Shown piece after piece: positions 7,412 to 28,104 of a DNA stretch of 28,170 nt. The stretch is taken from the IMG/VR virus record IMGVR_UViG_3300037245_000263, positions 1 to 28,170 of that record; one strand, written 5' to 3'. The DNA is from a virus. The notes below the pieces were generated by a model. It did not search any database. It saw only the letters and a program-made list of their open reading frames with translations, and had not been told where the DNA came from. The translations under genes were made by a program, and so were the position numbers. Each line of letters begins with the position of its first letter. Position 1 is the stretch's first letter.

Positions 7412-8524
7412 ATGATTACTTACAATGTAGTGTTTAATAAAGGTACTGATAAAGGTGTATATGCCATATCAGTAGTAGAAGACCCAGCCATGCAAAGTTC
7501 TTTTATAGCTTTAAACAAACAAGAAGAAATAAAACTTGCACAAGTTGACGATGTTAAGTTTTTATTAGCGGGTGTTGTATTAATTCCAGATAAGGATGTT
7601 TACAGAAACCAAGGCGGTAAAGAATTTAATATTAGATTCTCAAAAGAAACAATAGAAGAAGTTGCTAATAACTTTATTTTAGAGGGTTACCAAGGTAATA
7701 GTTCGCTAGAGCATGAAGAAAAATTAAACGGTGTTTCAATAGTACAAAGTTGGGTAGTTAAAGACCCTAAAAACGACACTGCAAACGCATACGGACTACC
7801 AAAGGAAGATATAAAGGAAGGTAGTTGGGTAGTGTTATATAAATGTGATAACAAAGAAGTTTATAACAAAGCCTTAAATGGAGAAATAAAGGGTTTCTCT
7901 ATTGATGGTTTATTTAGTTTAGAAAAAGTTAATTTAAAAAGTGAAACAATGACAAAAGAAGAAGTAAAAAAGTTCATAGATGAACAATTTACTGATTTTA
8001 AAGCAGTTTTTACCAAAGAAAAAGCCGTAGAGGTTAAGCTTGGTATGGCAACTTTAAAAGATGGTGAAACGCAAATTGAATACATGGGTGAAATAATGGA
8101 AGTCGGCGCTGATGTGTTTGTAGTGAACGGAGAAGACCGAGCACCGTTACCAGTAGGAGAATATCCTTTAGAAGATGGTACAATTCTAGTTGTAGCAGAA
8201 GAGGGTAAAATTGCTGAGGTAAAAGAAATGGTAGCCGAAGAAGTTGTTGAGGAATTAAACAACGATGAAACTGCTAAAGCTATGACTGAGGACTTTAAGC
8301 AAGTAATGAAGTCTTTAACTATTAAATATGCTGAGGAATCTCAGAAAATGGTTGCTGAATTAAAAGCGTCTTTCGATGTAAAACTTTCAGAACAAAACGC
8401 AATTATTGAGGAGTTAAAAAAGACACCCGCAACAACTGCTATTAAAAGCGCACCAACTCAATTAAGTAAAACGCCAAAAACGGCAAAAGAAAGAATTTTT
8501 AACGCAATACAAAAACAAAAATAA
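7412..8524 (+). CDS. XkdF-like prohead protease fused to scaffold
   Basis: This 370-residue protein joins an N-terminal serine protease domain of the XkdF type to a scaffold-like tail. Residues about 45-170 carry the family landmarks: the His at 101 in NSSLEHEEKLNGVSIVQSWV, then VKDPKNDTANAYG, then the Ser at 163 in EIKGFSIDGLFSLEK. His101 and Ser163 are the likely catalytic residues. Residues about 210-275 form a small beta-rich insert (EIMEVGADVFVVNGEDR, VGEYPLEDGTILVV). The remainder is an acidic/basic coiled coil ending in a Lys-rich helix, as expected for a delta/scaffold domain that is removed during head maturation. It sits 2 nt before the major capsid gene, the standard protease-capsid pairing. 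Confidence 0.82.
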   Translation: MITYNVVFNKGTDKGVYAISVVEDPAMQSSFIALNKQEEIKLAQVDDVKFLLAGVVLIPDKDVYRNQGGKEFNIRFSKETIEEVANNFILEGYQGNSSLEHEEKLNGVSIVQSWVVKDPKNDTANAYGLPKEDIKEGSWVVLYKCDNKEVYNKALNGEIKGFSIDGLFSLEKVNLKSETMTKEEVKKFIDEQFTDFKAVFTKEKAVEVKLGMATLKDGETQIEYMGEIMEVGADVFVVNGEDRAPLPVGEYPLEDGTILVVAEEGKIAEVKEMVAEEVVEELNNDETAKAMTEDFKQVMKSLTIKYAEESQKMVAELKASFDVKLSEQNAIIEELKKTPATTAIKSAPTQLSKTPKTAKERIFNAIQKQK

Positions 8525-10102: not shown

Positions 10103-10399
10103 ATGGAAATTATAAAAACACTTACTACTGAACAAGAAATTAAAATAATTCCTAGAGAGTTACTAAATTCAGTACGTTTATATTTAGTCGATAAAGAACA
10201 AGAAAGTAATGTAATAGATGAGGTTATAAATGTTACTAATGTAAATGAGTTTATGGTGGTACCTTTTACTGCTAACTTTTTCAAAGAGGGTAGAAAGTAT
10301 TTTATTAAAATATACAACGATTTAAACGAGCGTATTTGGCAAGGAGAGGCTTTTTGTACAGATGCCACAGATTTACAAAACTATAAAATTAACGGATAA
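10103..10399 (+). CDS. Hypothetical small structural-region protein
   Basis: The gene encodes 98 residues, predicted mostly beta-strand (SVRLYLVDKEQES, FMVVPFTANFFKEGRKYFIK, ERIWQGEAFCTD), and ends ATDLQNYKING. Its stop directly abuts the portal ATG. I think similar small proteins with a terminal 'T-x-x-x-Y-K-[IL]-N' occur beside structural genes of Bacteroidota phages, but I cannot name a family. A head-completion or neck role is possible from context only. Confidence 0.6.
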   Translation: MEIIKTLTTEQEIKIIPRELLNSVRLYLVDKEQESNVIDEVINVTNVNEFMVVPFTANFFKEGRKYFIKIYNDLNERIWQGEAFCTDATDLQNYKING

Positions 10400-20595: not shown

Positions 20596-20687
20596 TCGTA
20601 TATTGTTGGAGTAATTCCGCCAAGAATACGACATTAATTTTAAAACCTTTCTTTGCAATACTTGGCGGTGGCATTGAAAGGTTTTTT
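20596..20687 (+). ncRNA. Structured RNA with predicted kissing loops, element X
   Basis: Hairpin 1 pairs TCGTAT (20596-20601) with ATACGA (20626-20631). Hairpin 2 pairs AAAACCTTTC (20642-20651) with GAAAGGTTTT (20676-20685) and ends in a T-run. The hairpin 1 loop holds CCGCCAAG (20617-20624), perfectly complementary to CTTGGCGG (20661-20668) in the hairpin 2 loop. The same architecture with unrelated sequence recurs at 22869-22963. The endonuclease ATG follows 8 nt after hairpin 2, so it could be a leader, a conditional terminator or an independent RNA. No upstream promoter is clear. Confidence 0.6.
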
Positions 20688-20693
20688 ATTATT

Positions 20694-21182
20694 ATGAAAG
20701 AAGTTTTTAAAAATGTAAAAGGTTATGAGGGCCTTTATCAAATAAGTAATTTAGGCCGAGTAAAAAGTTTTGTAAAATGGAGAGGTAATCCGGAAAGAAT
20801 ATTAAAAGGTCGGCCAGATGGTAAAGGTTATTTAAATGTAATTCTTTATAAGAATAAAAAAAGTAAAAATTTCAGAATACATAAATTAGTAGCTTTAAGT
20901 TTTTTAAAAAATGGACCATCTAATTTAGTTGTGGACCACATAAACAATATTAAAACAGATAACCGGATAAACAATTTGCAGTTAATAACAAACCGATTAA
21001 ACATATCTAAAGACGTAAAAAACAAAACAAGTAAATATACCGGTGTTTCTTATGATAAAAAAAATAAAAAATGGAGGGCCTCAATATCTATAAATAAAAA
21101 ACAAATTAATCTTGGCCGGTATAATACACAAGAAATGGCCAGAGATAAATATATTAAAGCTTTAAATAAATTAAATGAATAA
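20694..21182 (+). CDS. NUMOD4-HNH-AP2 homing-type endonuclease
   Basis: This 162-residue free-standing endonuclease has three modules: NUMOD4 (1-28, EVFKNVKGYEGLYQISNLGR), HNH (about 60-105, IHKLVALSFL, VVDHINNIKTDNRINNLQLI) and an AP2-like DNA-binding region (about 113-158, YTGVSYDKKNKKWRASISIN). The nuclease His/Asn residues appear intact. Such genes spread by cutting phage genomes that lack them. Base use is foreign: six GGCC sites lie in this gene and I find none elsewhere in the window. It ends inside the start of the RusA-type gene (8-nt overlap). Confidence 0.9.
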   Translation: MKEVFKNVKGYEGLYQISNLGRVKSFVKWRGNPERILKGRPDGKGYLNVILYKNKKSKNFRIHKLVALSFLKNGPSNLVVDHINNIKTDNRINNLQLITNRLNISKDVKNKTSKYTGVSYDKKNKKWRASISINKKQINLGRYNTQEMARDKYIKALNKLNE

Positions 21183-21504
21183 AATAATATTAACCGGTTT
21201 ACCTAAAGTAAGTTTAAATTTATTTTATGCTGGTGTTCATTGGAGCAAAAGAAAGAAACTAAAAGACAAATATAAACTATTAATCAAAAGCCAATTTAAG
21301 CAAGTTTTAAGCAAGGATAAAACATACGAGGTCGAATATACTTTTAATTTTAAAACACGTCCTTTAGATGCGTCTAACTGTGTAGCAATGGTTAAACTAA
21401 TAGAAGACGTTATTTTTCAAGATGACAATTATAAAATAGTTGAATCTATTACAATTAAAAGCAGAAAAGCAAAGTTTGACAATGTAGAAATAGAAATAAT
21501 TTAA
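21175..21504 (+). CDS. rusA: RusA-type Holliday junction resolvase
   Basis: This 109-residue protein fits the RusA family, which resolves recombination junctions: start GLPKVSLNLFYAGVHWSKRK, then TRPLDASNCVAMVKLIEDV, then QDDNYKIVESITIKSRKA. The aspartates in LDASN, LIED and QDDN correspond to the metal-binding acidic triad. It works naturally with the ERF annealing protein and the SSB-like protein upstream. Its ATG lies within the end of the homing endonuclease gene, so insertion of that gene has kept the RusA start intact. Confidence 0.8.
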   Translation: MNKIILTGLPKVSLNLFYAGVHWSKRKKLKDKYKLLIKSQFKQVLSKDKTYEVEYTFNFKTRPLDASNCVAMVKLIEDVIFQDDNYKIVESITIKSRKAKFDNVEIEII

Positions 21505-21520
21505 AATATTTATTATATTA

Positions 21521-21553
21521 TTTGCTTTATAACTATAATATTTATTATATTTA
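21521..21553 (+). promoter_or_regulatory. Bacteroidota-type promoter
   Basis: TTTG at 21521-21524, then 21 nt, then TATATTTA at 21546-21553 followed by CACCAT. The 19-nt segment leading into the -7 box, TATAATATTTATTATATTT, occurs again exactly in the promoter at 25745-25763. The related string AATATTTATTATATT is also present just upstream at 21505-21519. The next ATG is at 21578. Confidence 0.75.
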
Positions 21554-21577
21554 CACCATAATCAAAAACCAATTATT

Positions 21578-21712
21578 ATGAGATACCAAATATTTAAAGA
21601 TTCAGTTTTAGTAAAAGTTGTAAAAGGTAGTAAAGATAAATTATTAACTAAGTTGTTAGAAGTAGAAAAAGCAAACCCTAACTCTAAAATACGTTTTGTA
21701 AAATGTTTATAG
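21578..21712 (+). CDS. 44-residue basic protein
   Basis: The ATG at 21578 lies 24 nt downstream of a good promoter, in the usual ATTATTATG context. The 44-residue product (MRYQIFKDSVLVKVVKGSKD start, ending IRFVKCL) looks like a strand-helix-strand mini-domain and is basic. It overlaps the next gene by 10 nt. No family is recognised. Confidence 0.6.
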   Translation: MRYQIFKDSVLVKVVKGSKDKLLTKLLEVEKANPNSKIRFVKCL

Positions 21713-21900
21713 TGGATAGCTTAATTGACCAAAACGAGTTCTACATATTCAGAGAGGACTTAACAGAGGTAAAATGTAGAATTACAACGGACAAAAAAAT
21801 TAAGCCGTTTAAATACAAATTAACACCTTTAGAAATGAAAGCAATAAGTAACAGGTATTTTAATAAATCAATTACTAAAAAATCAAATATACATGAGTAA
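21703..21900 (+). CDS. Hypothetical protein
   Basis: The gene encodes 65 residues, beginning MFIVDSLIDQNEFYIFREDL and continuing with a basic stretch (KKIKPFKYKLTPLEMKAISN). It overlaps both neighbours (10 nt and 8 nt). The pattern suggests beta-strands followed by a helix. Not recognised. Confidence 0.55.
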   Translation: MFIVDSLIDQNEFYIFREDLTEVKCRITTDKKIKPFKYKLTPLEMKAISNRYFNKSITKKSNIHE

Positions 21901-22105
21901 GCGACAAGCATTTTTACCAGTAAACAATTTTATTAATAGTAGTAAAAAAGGTAAGTTTTCAGATGAGAAATTAAAAGAGGGTTTATTTATATTTAAAAAT
22001 CAAATGAATGAATTTATTGATTATAAATATTCTTGTACTCTTACTGCTAGAATGAATTTAGAAATACTAAAGGATATAGAAACAGAATTAAACAGTAAGT
22101 TATGA
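21893..22105 (+). CDS. Hypothetical protein
   Basis: The gene encodes 70 residues: a basic, Ser-rich start (SKRQAFLPVNNFINSSKKGK) followed by an amphipathic helix region (LKEGLFIFKNQMNEFIDYKY and ARMNLEILKDIETEL). It overlaps the next small membrane-peptide gene by ATGA. Not recognised. Confidence 0.55.
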   Translation: MSKRQAFLPVNNFINSSKKGKFSDEKLKEGLFIFKNQMNEFIDYKYSCTLTARMNLEILKDIETELNSKL

Positions 22106-22212
22106 AAGGAATTAAAAAAGCAACCAAGTACGCAATGTTTTTTTTAATCACTTGTGTTATAATCTGGATAATATTAATGATAATTAGTTTAATTTATATT
22201 TTATTTATATGA
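22102..22212 (+). CDS. 36-residue membrane peptide
   Basis: The ATG at 22102 overlaps the preceding stop as ATGA, and the TGA at 22210-22212 overlaps the next ATG in the same way, so the three genes are translationally coupled. After MKGIKKATKYAM the rest is one hydrophobic helix (FFLITCVIIWIILMIISLIY). It is the second single-helix peptide in the early region, with 18767-18871. Confidence 0.6.
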   Translation: MKGIKKATKYAMFFLITCVIIWIILMIISLIYILFI

Positions 22213-22487
22213 AAACATTTAAACAATACCATAACGATAACCCACAAATATACAAGGCATTTGTAAGGTATGCGTTACAAGCAAAGCAAAAAGGTTTTGA
22301 TAATTATTCTGCTAAATCTTTATTCGAGATTATAAGATGGCATACACCAATAAAAGGCGGTGATGTATTTAAAATAGATAACAATTACGCACCAGACTAT
22401 GCAAGAAAAATGATGCAAGAATATGAAAGTTTTAAAGGTTTTTTTAGGGTGCGAACATTAAAAGCTAAAAGGCATGAAACAGTATAA
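22209..22487 (+). CDS. Hypothetical protein of a common phage type
   Basis: This 92-residue helical protein has a pattern I recognise from early regions of many phages (NPQIYKAFVRYALQAKQKGF, SAKSLFEIIRWHTPI, FKIDNNYAPDYARKMMQEYE, FFRVRTL) without a known function. It overlaps the small membrane-peptide gene by ATGA and the MazG-like gene by 14 nt. Confidence 0.65.
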   Translation: MKTFKQYHNDNPQIYKAFVRYALQAKQKGFDNYSAKSLFEIIRWHTPIKGGDVFKIDNNYAPDYARKMMQEYESFKGFFRVRTLKAKRHETV

Positions 22488-22830
22488 TATTTTAGGCGGA
22501 ATAGATAATTTAACAGAAAAAAAGAAAATGAAAAACTACAAGGAATTAGAAAAAGAAGTAATTAAATGGGCAGATAATAAAGGTATATTAACAAACGGCA
22601 CACCAGAAGCACAAGCAAACAAAACTATTGAAGAGGCATTGGAAATATACCAAGCTATTAAAGTAAATGACAAAGCCGAAATTATTGATGGTTTAGGTGA
22701 TGTTTTAGTGACTATTATAATACAAGCTAAGTTACAGAATGTTGATTTATTAGAATGCTTACAAACTGCATTAAATGTAATTACTAAGCGTACCGGTAAA
22801 ATGGTTAACGGTGAGTTTATAAAAGATTAA
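22474..22830 (+). CDS. MazG-like nucleotide pyrophosphohydrolase
   Basis: This 118-residue protein resembles MazG-type all-alpha NTP pyrophosphohydrolases. The metal-binding motif is visible: KTIEEALEIYQAI (E-E-x-x-E), then KAEIIDGLGDVLVTIIIQA (E-x-x-D). These enzymes hydrolyse nucleoside triphosphates, possibly lowering ppGpp signalling or cleaning the nucleotide pool during infection. The start is uncertain: the ATG at 22474 overlaps the previous gene and adds a segment with YNILGGIDNLTEKKK, while the ATG at 22528 would begin at MKNYKELEKEV. I keep the longer form. Confidence 0.75.
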   Translation: MKQYNILGGIDNLTEKKKMKNYKELEKEVIKWADNKGILTNGTPEAQANKTIEEALEIYQAIKVNDKAEIIDGLGDVLVTIIIQAKLQNVDLLECLQTALNVITKRTGKMVNGEFIKD

Positions 22831-22863
22831 TTTGATTAGATTAAATAATTATTTGTATATTTG
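22831..22863 (+). promoter_or_regulatory. Bacteroidota-type promoter with perfect -7 box
   Basis: TTTG at 22831-22834, immediately after the MazG-like stop, is followed by 21 nt and TATATTTG at 22856-22863, a full match to TAnnTTTG. Transcription would start near 22869-22871, exactly where the structured RNA (element Y) begins. Confidence 0.8.
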
Positions 22864-22868
22864 CTTTA

Positions 22869-22963
22869 TAGTTATTGAGAACCACATTAGATAACTAAAT
22901 AAAAAAAATATTAAAAGCCTTATAGCTGATGAGAAGTGGTTCTCTCTGAAGTTATAAGGCTTT
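22869..22963 (+). ncRNA. Structured leader RNA with predicted kissing loops, element Y
   Basis: Hairpin 1 pairs TAGTTAT (22869-22875) with ATAACTA (22891-22897). Hairpin 2 pairs 22914-22927 with 22950-22963, 14 bp with one G-U, centred on AAAGCCTTATA and TATAAGGCTTT. The hairpin 1 loop holds GAGAACCAC (22877-22885), perfectly complementary to GTGGTTCTC (22936-22944) in the hairpin 2 loop. It repeats the architecture of element X at 20596 with different bases in every helix, as expected for an RNA under structural selection. It has its own promoter and ends 23 nt before the next ATG. Confidence 0.65.
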
Positions 22964-22986
22964 ATTAATTTAATAACTTTTATACT

Positions 22987-23187
22987 ATGATTACTAAATT
23001 TGAATGCCAAAAGAACTTAAATAATATTGAGTTTAAGAGAGAATTAAACAATGTTTTTGTAAATATTTCTTGTTGGGAAACAGGAGAATACAAAAGTGTT
23101 AGACTTACAGAGAGTAACTTATTTGATTTAATAGGGCAACTATTAAGAATGCAAGCAGAAATAAGAAAGGAGGCTCAAAATGGCTAA
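22987..23187 (+). CDS. Hypothetical protein downstream of structured leader
   Basis: This 66-residue protein has predicted beta-strands (FKRELNNVFVNISCWETGEY) and a C-terminal helix (LFDLIGQLLRMQAEIRKEAQ). It overlaps the replication initiator by 8 nt and supplies that gene's AGGAGG-like sequence (GAAAGGAGGC at 23165-23174). Any control by the leader RNA would act first on this gene and then on replication. Not recognised. Confidence 0.55.
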   Translation: MITKFECQKNLNNIEFKRELNNVFVNISCWETGEYKSVRLTESNLFDLIGQLLRMQAEIRKEAQNG

Positions 23188-23919: not shown

Positions 23920-25713
23920 ATGAAAAATTTTATTGAATGGCTTGATATTGACCTAAGAGGTAAAACAAGCGGACAAACTAAAACTAAATGCCCTAATTGC
24001 GTTCATACATCAAAAGACAAAAGTAGTAGAGATTTATCTGTTAACATTTCTAAAGGCTTGGCAAACTGTCATAGGTGCGAAAGTGTAAGCGTTAGAGATA
24101 ACATACAAGCGGAAACAAAAAAAGAATATAAATTACCAGTACAGGAATGGAGAAACTATACAAATCTGTCTGATAACCTTGTTAAATATTTAGAAAGCAG
24201 AAATATAAAACAAAGTACTGCAATAGAATTAGGTTGGACTGAGGAGTTATATTGGCAACCATCAAAAAACAAAAAAGTAACTAATTTAGTTTTTAATACT
24301 TTTGAGGGTGATACACTTGTAAATAAAAAATACAGGAGTGGAGATAAAAAGTTTACACAGTCTGCTGGTACTAAATCTATTTTTTACAATATCAATTCTG
24401 CAATAGGGCAAAAAGAAATTTACATAGTAGAGGGTGAAATGGACGTGGCAAGCCTTTACGAAGTAGGAATTAAAAACGTAGTAAGTGTTCCAAACGGCGC
24501 AAATGATAATGACGATTTTTGGATTAATTCAGAAAAATATATTAAAGACATTGAAAGTTTTGTTATTGCAGTTGATAACGATGAGAAAGGAAACGAACTT
24601 AAAAACGCTATTGCGCACCGTTTAGGACGTCATAGATGTACTTTTATAGAGTTCGAGGGTAAAGATGCAAACGACGATTTAAACTCACTTAAACTTGATA
24701 AAACAGCTTTTAATAAAAAGAGATTCCCAGTAAGCGGAACATTTAGAATTTCAGATTTGTATGATGGTGTTTTAGATTTGTACGATAACGGACTACCAAA
24801 AACAATATATCCAAAATCAAAATATTTCGGAAACCTTAAAGACATATACTCCGAAATGTTAGGTCAATTAGTAGTTGCAACAGGTATGCCATCACATGGT
24901 AAAAGTACATTTACAGACTGGAAAGTTTTAAATTTAATAAAGGATTATAATTATAAAGCTAGTTGGTTTAGCCCAGAACACTCACCAATGGAATTATATC
25001 ATAGTTCACTAGCTGAAAAAGTTATAGGTAAAAACTTTTGGAAACAAAAAGGTAATGTAGGTAGAATGACTAAGGACGATTTAGATAAATACCATGAATG
25101 GTCAAATGATAAAATTTACTTAACTGATTGTGATGGTGGACAATTGCCAACTTGGGACTGGTTATTAGATAAATTCAAGGAACAAATGTACTCTTTTGGT
25201 ATTAATATTTTTGTTATAGATGCTTTTAATAAAGTACTATTGCCAAAGGGTAATAAGTTAGAGCAAATAAACATTGTACTAACTAAACTAACTCACTTTG
25301 CACAAGCTAATAATGTTTTAATTTACTTAGTTGCACACCCTACAAAGATGAAAAAAAGTGATGATGGTATTTATGATGTGCCAACTTTGTATGATGTTTC
25401 TGGTTCGGCTGATTTTAGAAACCAAACGCATTGCGGTTATACTATTTATAGAACTTTCGCAACAGATACAACAGACGATTATACAAGTTTTTACAATATG
25501 AAAACAAAATTTAGTTTTCAAGGTGAAATAGGTGCAAAGGTAGATTTTAAATATTGTGATATTAATGGACGTTACTATACAGAAGATAGTGGAATACCTA
25601 CACACAGTTTAATAGATGATGAAAAACCAGAGTTTCTATTGCCAATGGGTACAACCGAACAAGCATTTAAAAAACAACAAGATGATGAGTTTGACAATGA
25701 TTGCCCTTTTTAA
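23920..25713 (+). CDS. TOPRIM primase-DnaB-like helicase fusion
   Basis: This 597-residue bifunctional replication protein of T7 gp4 layout has a zinc finger (Cys24, Cys27, Cys50, Cys53), a TOPRIM primase domain (EGEMD at 171-175, DND at 219-221), and a RecA-like helicase domain with Walker A GMPSHGKST at 322-330, Walker B INIFVIDAFN and motif LIYLVAHPTK, then a DFRNQTH segment. It primes and unwinds DNA at the phage fork, presumably loaded by the product of the gene 2 nt upstream. The C-terminus DDEFDNDCPF resembles the acidic SSB-type tip of the DUF3127 protein. Confidence 0.88.
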   Translation: MKNFIEWLDIDLRGKTSGQTKTKCPNCVHTSKDKSSRDLSVNISKGLANCHRCESVSVRDNIQAETKKEYKLPVQEWRNYTNLSDNLVKYLESRNIKQSTAIELGWTEELYWQPSKNKKVTNLVFNTFEGDTLVNKKYRSGDKKFTQSAGTKSIFYNINSAIGQKEIYIVEGEMDVASLYEVGIKNVVSVPNGANDNDDFWINSEKYIKDIESFVIAVDNDEKGNELKNAIAHRLGRHRCTFIEFEGKDANDDLNSLKLDKTAFNKKRFPVSGTFRISDLYDGVLDLYDNGLPKTIYPKSKYFGNLKDIYSEMLGQLVVATGMPSHGKSTFTDWKVLNLIKDYNYKASWFSPEHSPMELYHSSLAEKVIGKNFWKQKGNVGRMTKDDLDKYHEWSNDKIYLTDCDGGQLPTWDWLLDKFKEQMYSFGINIFVIDAFNKVLLPKGNKLEQINIVLTKLTHFAQANNVLIYLVAHPTKMKKSDDGIYDVPTLYDVSGSADFRNQTHCGYTIYRTFATDTTDDYTSFYNMKTKFSFQGEIGAKVDFKYCDINGRYYTEDSGIPTHSLIDDEKPEFLLPMGTTEQAFKKQQDDEFDNDCPF

Positions 25714-25731
25714 ATAAAAAGAATATAATTA

Positions 25732-25764
25732 TTTGTATATTAATTATAATATTTATTATATTTG
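25732..25764 (+). promoter_or_regulatory. Bacteroidota-type promoter
   Basis: TTTG at 25732-25735, 21 nt, then TATATTTG at 25757-25764, a perfect -7 box. It shares a 19-bp segment with the promoter at 21534-21553. The next gene starts at 25789, 24 nt after the -7 box; a TTG at 25762 is inside the -7 box and cannot be a translation start. Confidence 0.8.
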
Positions 25765-25788
25765 ACAAACAAACTAAAAAGCAATAAA

Positions 25789-26148
25789 ATGACAAAGCAA
25801 GAAAAATATTTAGACTCATTAACTGGAGCAGTAATACTAAATCAATTAGCATTAAATTTTAACGAAGACTTAAAATACACTAAGTTTTATAAGCATGAGT
25901 TAAAAAAATCTTTAAACATGACTATTAAACATTTAATTAAGGCAGAGCAAAACGAGTTTGACTTAGTATTTGACGCAGAAGAAGAACGCACCGATTACAT
26001 AAGTAAAAATGTACTTACAATAATAGAAACAATAAGCAAGGGAGGTTTTACAGATATGGTTGTTATTGGTAATATATTATTAGCACACCAAAAAGACCCT
26101 AAAGCAATAGAGGGAATTGTAAAAAAGGTTTTGACTAATAAAAACTAA
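25789..26148 (+). CDS. Hypothetical helical protein
   Basis: The gene encodes 119 residues from the ATG at 25789, in AATAAAATG context downstream of a strong promoter. It is helical and charged (KQEKYLDSLTGAVILNQLAL, FYKHELKKSLNMTIKHLIKA) with a C-terminal helix (VVIGNILLAHQKDPKAIEG). I do not recognise the family. It opens the right-hand region of small, loosely spaced genes. Confidence 0.65.
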   Translation: MTKQEKYLDSLTGAVILNQLALNFNEDLKYTKFYKHELKKSLNMTIKHLIKAEQNEFDLVFDAEEERTDYISKNVLTIIETISKGGFTDMVVIGNILLAHQKDPKAIEGIVKKVLTNKN

Positions 26149-26223
26149 CTCATTTTATAAGGTGCGTGGCGACCTAAACAGCACAGACAATCTAATAATA
26201 ATTAAACTTTAAAAATATAACAG

Positions 26224-26457
26224 ATGAAAAATTTAATAACAAAATTAAGCTATTCATTTTATACATTTTTAGTTGCTTTTTTGGTTGGTTGCCAAGGAGG
26301 AACAAGTGGAGACAGCACAAAGAAAGCAAACAATGATTATAGTGATATAGTAGTTACTGAAATAGATGGGTGTGAATACGTTGTTTATAGAGGGTTTGAA
26401 AAGGGTGGTATAATACACAAAGCTAATTGCAAGAACTCCAACCACAATTGCAACTAA
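26224..26457 (+). CDS. Small lipoprotein
   Basis: This 77-residue protein has a lipoprotein signal with Cys23 as lipid attachment site (FYTFLVAFLVGCQGG). The mature part is about 55 residues and contains IDGCEYVVYRGFEKGGIIHK and ANCKNSNHNC; I think a C-x-Y with H-K-x-N-C arrangement occurs in other small Bacteroidota mobile-element lipoproteins. No acidic export signal follows Cys, so it may stay in the inner membrane. A superinfection-exclusion role is a reasonable guess from other phage lipoproteins, not shown here. The 75-nt gap before it holds a relatively GC-rich segment (26161-26185). Confidence 0.6.
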   Translation: MKNLITKLSYSFYTFLVAFLVGCQGGTSGDSTKKANNDYSDIVVTEIDGCEYVVYRGFEKGGIIHKANCKNSNHNCN

Positions 26458-26498
26458 CGGATGGTAATATGATTAGTACGATTTTAAAATATAAAATT

Positions 26499-26654
26499 AT
26501 GAATGAAGAACAGACTTTAATTTATTGGGAAAAGTGGTTAAAAGGAAAAGAATCTTTAATTAGACAATGCTGTGAGGAAATAGGTAATGCTGATACAAGT
26601 GAAGAAAGAAACTTTTACCACAGAGTTTATGGTTTAATACAAAGTAAGTATTAA
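26499..26654 (+). CDS. Hypothetical 51-residue protein
   Basis: I choose the ATG at 26499 (context ATAAAATTATG, shared with neighbouring genes) although the frame opens earlier at 26427 inside the lipoprotein gene. The product is helical (MNEEQTLIYWEKWLKGKES, IRQCCEEIGNADTSEERNFY). Not recognised. Helical peptides of this type, with 'LxxWExWLKxKE', are found among short phage early proteins. Confidence 0.5.
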   Translation: MNEEQTLIYWEKWLKGKESLIRQCCEEIGNADTSEERNFYHRVYGLIQSKY

Positions 26655-26731
26655 TTAATGCTAACGGTTAGTGTATGTACCGTTTGAGGTACGAAAATGG
26701 AATATAAACAATGTTATAAAATGTTTTAATT

Positions 26732-26920
26732 ATGGATGATGAAAATTATAATAAATTAATAGTTGATATGTTAGAAAAAAAAGAACTTGAAATGTGTGAG
26801 TTTCTTAACAAATATATGTCACAAGATGAAAGGAATAGGATAGGTGAAGATATCGTTAGGATAATGCCTAACTGTGCTGATATAGCTAAAATAAAAATTA
26901 AATTAATATCAAATATGTAA
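26732..26920 (+). CDS. Hypothetical 62-residue protein
   Basis: The gene starts in TTTTAATTATG context and encodes an acidic, helical protein (NYNKLIVDMLEKKELEMCEF, DERNRIGEDIVRIM). The 77-nt spacer before it has a small hairpin, GTACC (26683-26687) with GGTAC about 6 nt later. Not recognised. Confidence 0.5.
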   Translation: MDDENYNKLIVDMLEKKELEMCEFLNKYMSQDERNRIGEDIVRIMPNCADIAKIKIKLISNM

Positions 26921-26976
26921 TTGATATTTTACAACGTTTTGGATAAGTTTATTTACGTATTAAAAAACATAAAATT

Positions 26977-27294
26977 ATGATTACACGACAAAAATATTTA
27001 GAAGCATTAACCATTGTAGAAGCCTATCACGAGCAATTAAATTTATCTATTGTTATGCACTGCGTTGACAATAAATACAATATAGATGTTTCTGAAAAAG
27101 GATCGTATTTGTTATGTGAGGGTAAGGAATCGAATACAAAGTATTTAACCATAGGTAAAAAATATAAAATAACAGGAAAAAAAATAGGATGGTATGTAGG
27201 TGATAAAGAACACGTATGTATTCAGATAATTAATGATGTAGGTAAGTATTTTTGGATAAAACAAAACATTAAGAATCATTGGAGTTGTACCTAA
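26977..27294 (+). CDS. Hypothetical protein with SH3-like C-terminal part
   Basis: This 105-residue protein starts with a helix (ITRQKYLEALTIVEAYHEQL) of a kind I recognise from many short Bacteroidota phage proteins. Residues about 50-105 look like a small SH3-like beta-barrel (YLLCEGKESNTKYLTIGKKY, VCIQIINDVGKYFWI). The gene carries the only GATC site I find in the window (27101-27104). Function unknown. Confidence 0.55.
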   Translation: MITRQKYLEALTIVEAYHEQLNLSIVMHCVDNKYNIDVSEKGSYLLCEGKESNTKYLTIGKKYKITGKKIGWYVGDKEHVCIQIINDVGKYFWIKQNIKNHWSCT

Positions 27295-27321
27295 TGACCA
27301 AAAATAAGAAACGTAACGATT

Positions 27322-27582
27322 ATGAAAGATAAACTTAGGAAATTAGTAGAAGACTATACAGTAAGCAATGAAGCTGGACAGGAGCTATATGACGAGTTAT
27401 GTATTTTATTTGATGTTAGCAAATGTTTGCCGACTGAAAAGGAATACCTTGAAATTAGAAATGAATTAGCAAAAGAGCATATAGATAGACTTAGTAAACA
27501 ACCATTGTATTTTATACTTAGAGCAGGGATAGAGAAAGGAATGGACGCTATTATTAATAGAATTAAGGCAAATGATTGCTAA
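27322..27582 (+). CDS. Hypothetical protein
   Basis: The 86-residue product is helical and acidic (KLRKLVEDYTVSNEAGQELY, LEIRNELAKEHIDRLSKQPL) and ends in Cys. It starts 27 nt after the previous stop, preceded by GAAACGTAACGATTATG. Not recognised. Confidence 0.55.
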   Translation: MKDKLRKLVEDYTVSNEAGQELYDELCILFDVSKCLPTEKEYLEIRNELAKEHIDRLSKQPLYFILRAGIEKGMDAIINRIKANDC

Positions 27583-27639
27583 TGCCGAGAATAAAATTTG
27601 TTTTAATAAAATTTATTATTTGTTATTAACTGAAAAATT

Positions 27640-27813
27640 ATGAATGAAGTAGTACAAACTTGGATTGTTAACCACGCAAACGGAATAACGCAAATGTATA
27701 AAACTAAGGAAGGTTTTTATTATTTAGTTATACCCACATCAACAGGTAGTTGTTGGACTGACGTTTGCAAGAGTATAGATGAATACGAAGCTAAAAAGTA
27801 TATTGAAAAATAA
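27640..27813 (+). CDS. Hypothetical 57-residue protein
   Basis: The ATG at 27640 (context GAAAAATTATG) opens a 57-residue frame, beta-rich at first (MNEVVQTWIVNHANGITQMY, GFYYLVIPTSTGSCW) with a C-terminal helix (SIDEYEAKKYIEK). Its start context matches the other right-end genes. Not recognised. Confidence 0.5.
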   Translation: MNEVVQTWIVNHANGITQMYKTKEGFYYLVIPTSTGSCWTDVCKSIDEYEAKKYIEK

Positions 27814-27873
27814 TTTTATTGTTTATAACGTATGGTTATATGGTTAGATTTTTAACGGATTAAATACTATAAA

Positions 27874-28014
27874 ATGACAGAGGTAGAAAAAGAATTATTA
27901 GAGTGCTTAAAAGATTATATTAAGCAAACAGAAACAGCCCATTTACAAGAAGGTATTTGGTTCAACAAAGTTTATAAAGATGCAAAACAATTAGTTAAAA
28001 AATTAACTATATAA
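27874..28014 (+). CDS. Hypothetical 46-residue protein
   Basis: The ATG at 27874 opens a 46-residue helical frame (MTEVEKELLECLKDYIKQTE, FNKVYKDAKQLVKKLTI). The upstream 60 nt contain TTATAACG and TTAACGG strings similar to other spacers in the right-end array. Not recognised. Confidence 0.45.
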   Translation: MTEVEKELLECLKDYIKQTETAHLQEGIWFNKVYKDAKQLVKKLTI

Positions 28015-28017
28015 CGT

Positions 28018-28104
28018 GTTGTATGTCTTTTTTAATTGCATACAACTAAAGAGTAAACAACGTTTTAATGTTGTTTAATATTAGTTGTGAGCCGTTTTAA
28101 TGGC
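28018..28104 (+). repeat. Cluster of overlapping inverted repeats before the last gene
   Basis: Four inverted repeats lie within 87 nt: GTTGTATG (28018-28025) with CATACAAC (28039-28046); ACAACTAA (28042-28049) with TTAGTTGT (28081-28088); TAAACAAC (28054-28061) with GTTGTTTA (28070-28077), loop GTTTTAAT; and GCC (28091-28093) with GGC (28102-28104), again around the loop GTTTTAAT. The second and third nest into one long hairpin, which excludes the first. It could be an operator, an attenuator-like switch or a structured DNA site. Confidence 0.6.

Follow-up and report, generated by a model that had tools for sequence, protein, structure and literature searches.

Two intergenic elements of a flavobacterial phage encode, as comparison with their homologs indicates, structured 5'-terminal leader RNAs of about 75–110 nt that belong to one family. 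Both lie in the virus record IMGVR_UViG_3300037245_000263, a linear record of 28,170 bases that we analysed as a whole (the window). Each element has a first hairpin (S1), an A/U-rich linker and a second hairpin (S2), and a segment in the loop of S1 (K1) is perfectly complementary to a segment in the loop of S2 (K2); we call the K1/K2 helix the kiss. An original prediction, made from the letters of the window alone, had described this layout and placed it just upstream of start codons. Both elements were located as described, with an ATG at 20694 behind element 1 and a start at 22987 behind element 2. We are virtually certain that the family is real. As to function, we regard the explanation as a whole (a leader family with an attenuator tuned by the kiss) as evenly poised between right and wrong.

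Loop pairing, covariation and strand

The kiss is not a product of chance. It was put to a permutation test in which candidates were chosen for a TAnnTTTG box with a long-loop hairpin and its U-tract behind it, and neither S1 nor a kiss was demanded. Of the 116 such candidates, 50 had loops that pair at −12 kcal/mol or better. Swapping loops between loci gave a mean of 2.4 and a maximum of 5.1. The proposed loop–loop pairing is thus upheld by a test that did not select for it.

The helices also covary. A covariance model (R1) built from 14 copies matches element 2 of the window at 22871–22969 (E 0.015), though that element lay outside the training set, and it matches several other copies too. 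In the alignment derived from R1, two-sided changes occur in all 20 modelled pairs, 89.4% of cells pair (55.7% when shuffled), and the covariation score is 0.767, compared with 0.206 for shuffled alignments and at most 0.146 for slid frames; this alignment was fitted to the structure, so the permutation test carries the more independent weight. The original prediction had read compensatory change from two copies and proposed a covariance search as its check. The change is borne out, and dozens of further copies with covarying helices were found.

The pairing has a strand. In S2, G-U pairs outnumber A-C pairs by 61 to 10 (p 5e-10) in a test that treated both alike, and selection therefore acts on gene-strand RNA. 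We considered whether the elements might instead be inverted repeats that work at the DNA level, as a repressor operator or as a homing or replication site. As DNA, K1/K2 and the stems do form inverted repeats, and they adjoin endonuclease and replication genes. Yet the excess of G-U over A-C lies on the gene strand, the kisses differ among copies of one genome, unlike operators, the spacing to the promoter and the U-tract is fixed, and minima of GC skew do not coincide with the elements. We consider a DNA-level role very improbable, and a replication origin was rejected on the position of the GC-skew minima.

Taken singly, the two window elements differ in strength. Both nested folds are more stable than those of dinucleotide shuffles (z −3.4 and −3.9). 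A descriptor scan that scores S1, S2, the K1/K2 helix and the U-tract gave −48.6 for element 2, a score reached in none of 1,000 dinucleotide-shuffled windows. Element 1 scored −39.4, which was reached in 2 of 1,000 shuffles, or in 10 of 1,000 when no U-tract was demanded. By itself element 1 is modest evidence, being only moderately unlikely, and it is this figure that would speak for chance folds in an A/T-rich genome. The homologs settle the matter: together with the covariation and the permutation tests, they refute chance for the family and leave it next to no probability.

Anatomy of the leaders, from promoter to U-tract

We assembled a confident set of 59 copies with 49 different kiss sequences. 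Membership required a TAnnTTTG box, so the presence of the box is itself no evidence; the promoters are judged real because of the spacing of the box and a TTG peak near −33. The box starts 13–29 nt before K1 (median 19, interquartile range 18–21), and the TTG peak lies 21–24 nt upstream of the box (58 copies). The −7 element of Flavobacterium johnsoniae spans −12 to −5 (PMC6847099), and on that register the RNA would start at the 5' arm of S1, with K1 beginning near +8.

Few positions are invariant across copies, and the architecture is regular. The kiss has 7–10 bp and forms a GC island (58% GC, compared with 16% in the linker). From the end of K1 to S2 there are about 26 nt, mostly A/U. By eye, the outer stem of S2 mostly has 11–13 bp, and an inner stem of 3–5 bp leads to K2. 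The internal loop between them is purine-rich and non-canonical, often AAUGA/GAUU with tandem G-A and, in another subclass, AGUA/GAA (also by eye). The 5' side of S2 is A-rich, and at positions +1 to +5 past its last G-C pair the frequency of T is 0.78–0.97. At least five T in eight follow 63 of the 73 promoter-linked matches, as against 51 of the 146 others. S2 thus has the stable stem with a U-tract directly behind it that marks an intrinsic terminator; a simple terminator scan misses S2, its loop limit being too small. In nearly all copies an ATG follows 7–55 nt downstream. The original picture of the elements stands as far as it went; what it missed were the promoter box and the U-tract, which make the element a 5'-terminal leader with a terminator-like end.

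In both window elements S1 and S2 come in the fixed order and are joined intramolecularly by a kiss of 7 bp or more; a U-tract follows and, within about 60 nt, the start of an open reading frame (ORF). All coordinates below are on the + strand. In element 2, a candidate −33 promoter element TTTG (22831–22834) precedes the Bacteroidota −7 box TATATTTG (22856–22863), which lies 21 nt before K1, within the 16–22 nt asked of a TAnnTTTG box in this family, and gives a predicted RNA start at about 22868. S1 (22869–22897) has eight pairs (22869–22876/22890–22897) and carries K1, GAGAACCAC, at 22877–22885. The A/U-rich linker (22898–22913) leads to S2 (22914–22963), with an outer stem (22914–22927/22950–22963), a non-canonical GAU/UGA internal loop, an inner stem GAG/CUC, and K2, GTGGTTCTC, at 22936–22944. 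Its U-tract TTTATTAATTT (22961–22971) has at least five T in eight and is weak for the family. Two known motifs were considered for this element and rejected. Element 2 contains CUGAUGAG, which recalls a hammerhead ribozyme; we looked for conservation of CUGAUGA and GAAA cores in a three-way junction and did not find it, the motif is absent from most copies, and there is no hammerhead match in Rfam. A C/D-box kink-turn, to which weak Rfam matches on element 2 pointed, was defined by a 3-nt bulge beside tandem G-A pairs; by eye, the internal loop is symmetric and the outer stem of S2 is flush.

In element 1, the putative −7 box TATTGTTG (20601–20608) is degenerate, with one mismatch, and lies 16 nt before K1. 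K1, CCGCCAAG, occupies 20617–20624 as the 8-nt loop of a probable S1 (20611–20629) with five pairs and one bulge (GTAATT/AATAC, arms 20611–20616/20625–20629). S2 (20642–20685) has a stem (20642–20651/20676–20685), an inner stem TGC/GCA, and K2, CTTGGCGG, at 20661–20668. The U-tract (20682–20692) is strong and directly precedes the ATG.

The two-hairpin layout of the original prediction thus holds for both elements, and its S1 for element 1 is doubtful. That hairpin (20596–20631) paired TCGTAT (20596–20601) with ATACGA (20626–20631). It is not conserved, and S1 needs redrawing because the TCGTAT arm aligns onto the −7 promoter box of the homologs. In the alignment with phage elemo, the counterpart is AAAT-CCGCCAAG-ATTT, with K1 in the loop, and the homologous S1 of element 1 is probably GTAATT/AATAC around CCGCCAAG. 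The TCGTAT/ATACGA hairpin could form in RNA transcribed through from upstream.

Distribution and downstream genes

Gene content and DNA similarity identify the window as that of a flavobacterial tailed phage. It encodes portal and head proteins, an endolysin, ERF, a RusA-like resolvase, MazG and a TOPRIM/DnaB primase-helicase, and 122 of the 156 records with DNA similarity to it are Flavobacterium phages. From 25700 to 28100 it carries a series of short ORFs separated by intergenic gaps.

Homologs came from the descriptor scan, from 80 contigs retrieved by their primase, and from contigs retrieved by the CCGCCAAG pattern. The exact-pattern scan for CCGCCAAG..CTTGGCGG gave many GC-rich chance matches, which composition and promoter filters removed. 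The CCGCCAAG kiss recurs in an endonuclease-linked class, whose frequency is biased because part of it was retrieved by that same pattern; the copies in elemo, in two contigs (L004 and L052) and in the window were found independently of it. Contigs with two or three copies have a different kiss in each.

The element occurs in the isolates Flavobacterium phages elemo, filifjonk and FCL-2, Cellulophaga phage phi19:1 and Olleya phage Harreka. Relatives of element 1 (72% identical) stand before a different type of endonuclease in the elemo phages. A second copy in elemoB, whose kiss is TGAGAGC, precedes a small ORF and a replication protein of that phage, an arrangement also seen in the window. 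The scanned stretches of crAss001, B124-14, Leef, P12024L, TCUEAP1 and phi14:2 yielded no promoter-linked candidate that equalled these in quality; a few weaker or coding-region matches in those phages were set aside, as was one overlapping candidate in Cellulophaga phage Nekkels. Nekkels also has, at 10192–10291 of its contig (L220), a promoter-linked structure with 9-nt loop complementarity and an extra long repeat, which may be a divergent relative. Elements with ACCGCCAAG/CTTGGCGGT stand in five contigs (L151, L154, L158, L179 and L101) whose DNA is less rich in A/T. They look like the endonuclease class, and with them the family may reach beyond these phages. A genome scan for bacterial or prophage copies returned one contig only (L216, 4.8 kb), in a metagenome-assembled genome labelled Campylobacterales. 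This contig is phage-like and probably misbinned; it carries a leader with a GCGTGAGA kiss, and its primase shares 50% identity with the query alignment.

The genes behind the leaders fall largely in the replication module. The element lies within 1.7 kb upstream of the primase in 44 of 68 non-redundant loci, compared with 4 of 62 control windows. One downstream type is a family of 58–86-aa ORFs, followed by a replisome organiser-like gene and the primase. Elsewhere the leader precedes the replisome organiser-like gene directly, ERF, a BT4734-type primase or a DEAD-box helicase; others precede homing endonucleases (NUMOD4-HNH, endonuclease-VII-like and GIY-YIG), one precedes a PAPS-reductase-like gene, and some downstream genes have no assignment. 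In the window, a NUMOD4-HNH-AP2 homing-type endonuclease (20694–21182) follows element 1, and a 66-aa ORF (22987–23187) follows element 2. A relative of the latter (53% identity) in contig L008 is preceded by an element of the same shape in other letters, and homologs of this small ORF stand behind the element in many other phages (L008, L024, L026, L076 and others). The family has a predicted β-β-β-β-α fold (pLDDT 90), and some members match only unnamed PHROGs (33177, 7002). The model has no significant match in the PDB, and the family has none in Pfam. We rejected the idea that the ORF is a known nucleic-acid binder, given a confident model with no match in either. Its product is a candidate partner of the RNA or of replication.

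This setting bears on a further alternative, in which each element would be an independent, trans-acting small RNA and the downstream genes incidental. In its favour, the elements form a complete unit of about 95 nt from promoter to terminator. Against this, the loops, where seeds usually lie, pair in cis and vary freely (49 kisses in 59 copies), and the copies found are oriented in sense and stand immediately before a gene, mostly of one module. We think a small RNA of this kind improbable.

A leader that may act on transcription, and its known relatives

We favour a promoter-proximal attenuator. By comparison of the copies, each leader normally starts at its own TAnnTTTG promoter and folds S1, with K1 in its loop, and then S2, in which a long outer stem, a non-canonical internal loop and a short inner stem lead to K2. 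The kiss joins both hairpins, its letters free to vary as long as complementarity is kept. S2 and the U-tract together would form an intrinsic terminator, at which a share of the polymerases would halt and let go of a short RNA, the others continuing into the replication-module or homing-endonuclease gene. The kiss would form as K2 exits the polymerase and would set the speed and stability of S2 folding, and hence the fraction that reads through. Copy-specific kisses would stop the leaders of one genome from pairing with each other. The U-tract is our reason for preferring a terminator tuned by the kiss. A regulatory role is plausible; attenuation as such we infer, at a confidence a little under an even call.

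Several observations weigh against attenuation. There is no conserved antiterminator helix: pairings of the linker or of downstream sequence with the S2 arms are no better than permuted, nor are pairings of K1 or K2 with their flanks, the start region included. Some copies have only a short U-tract (longest T-run 3–4 in 17 of 59), element 2 of the window among them, and S2 has loops of a length unusual in terminators, with a median of 25 nt. Since no competing helix is conserved, the leader is not a classical on/off attenuator. A switching attenuator or riboswitch was rejected because mutually exclusive antiterminator pairing was no better than permuted.

Two serious rivals to the attenuator have to be weighed. 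The leader might be a cis-acting RNA like put of phage HK022, which would bind the host polymerase and make it resist pausing and termination over long phage operons. As in putL (PMC9378689), two linked stem-loops stand right behind a phage promoter at operon heads, the second stem has non-canonical pairs and the two stems touch; a single conserved fold without a competing helix also suits this idea. However, put can do without a U-tract at the base of stem II, where one is enriched here, and conserved contact nucleotides would be expected in a family with few invariant positions. We regard a put-like role as possible but unlikely. Alternatively, the leader might shield the mRNA from 5'-dependent decay, or S2 might gate translation by limiting ribosome access. 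The structure begins at the 5' end of the RNA, initiation in F. johnsoniae drops when structure lies close to the start codon, and RNA structures repress phage endonuclease genes, with T4-type precedents (PMC3014915). Support is greatest in the CCGCCAAG class, where S2 ends 7–19 nt before the ATG; in most other copies, however, the ATG is about 25 nt downstream. Neither stabiliser nor gate explains the U-tract, and K1, K2 and S2 have no conserved pairing with the start region. A stabiliser or gate is decidedly unlikely in our judgement. The specific case of a T4-type hairpin sequestering the ribosome-binding site was rejected, as the ATG lies outside S2 in both elements and no downstream pairing is conserved.

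We hold it somewhat less likely than not that the leaders are a categorically new class of phage transcription-control RNA: a promoter-proximal two-hairpin knot with a freely evolving, self-specific kiss, acting in cis on flavobacterial RNA polymerase as a conditional terminator or a put-like modifier, and placed as a portable leader before genes for replication and homing endonucleases. The leaders add an RNA family that is widespread, covaries strongly and includes a genuine tertiary contact, in phages that infect an environmentally major group of bacteria whose transcription control is little studied. They may control the amount of the downstream gene product, and they bear on the timing of replication and endonuclease genes in phages that use Bacteroidota sigma-factor promoters. 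Every phage supplies natural compensatory variants, making reporters directly testable, and the many mutually distinct kisses could serve as orthogonal RNA parts.

The original prediction had suggested an undescribed phage RNA, and we agree. Within the window, and at the elements of the loci tested, all 4227 Rfam models stay below their gathering scores, and permissive searches at the elements gave only inconsistent, weak and chance-like matches; Rfam covariance models exclude pseudoknots, and the comparison covers sequence and nested structure. Nor did we find a description of such an RNA in the open-access papers searched. A phage contig of the same kind (L062) carries, at 8283–8314, the Rfam DUF805b RNA (RF02914, E 7e-8).

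Three known systems are close in kind. The putL and putR RNAs of HK022, to which we liken the leaders by description, are two-hairpin RNAs of about 70 nt with inter-stem contacts and non-canonical pairs in stem II, in a paper from which the word pseudoknot is absent (PMC9378689). An early phage promoter stands immediately before putL, and the leaders too follow a promoter. By contrast, putL and putR share sequence, whereas the leader copies share shape and hardly any sequence. To our knowledge, put has neither a kiss nor a U-tract. A true put RNA would also be expected to resemble putL/putR in sequence, to bind the zinc-binding domain of the RNAP β' subunit and to antiterminate. The intrinsic (Rho-independent) terminators of leader attenuators likewise have an A-tract, a GC-containing stem and a U-tract between promoter and gene. 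The leaders differ from them in a loop of ~25 nt with an internal loop and inner stem, in the kiss to an upstream hairpin, and in having no antiterminator helix. Finally, the hairpins that silence phage homing endonucleases (I-TevI, Aeh1 mobE and, by implication, segB) also place structured RNA directly before a start codon (PMC3014915), and element 1 lies 8 nt before its HNH gene. The leaders differ in having no pairing with the start region, and most copies precede replication genes. To the extent tested, then, the family is undescribed, and its kind, a cis-acting phage leader RNA with a terminator-like end, is already known.

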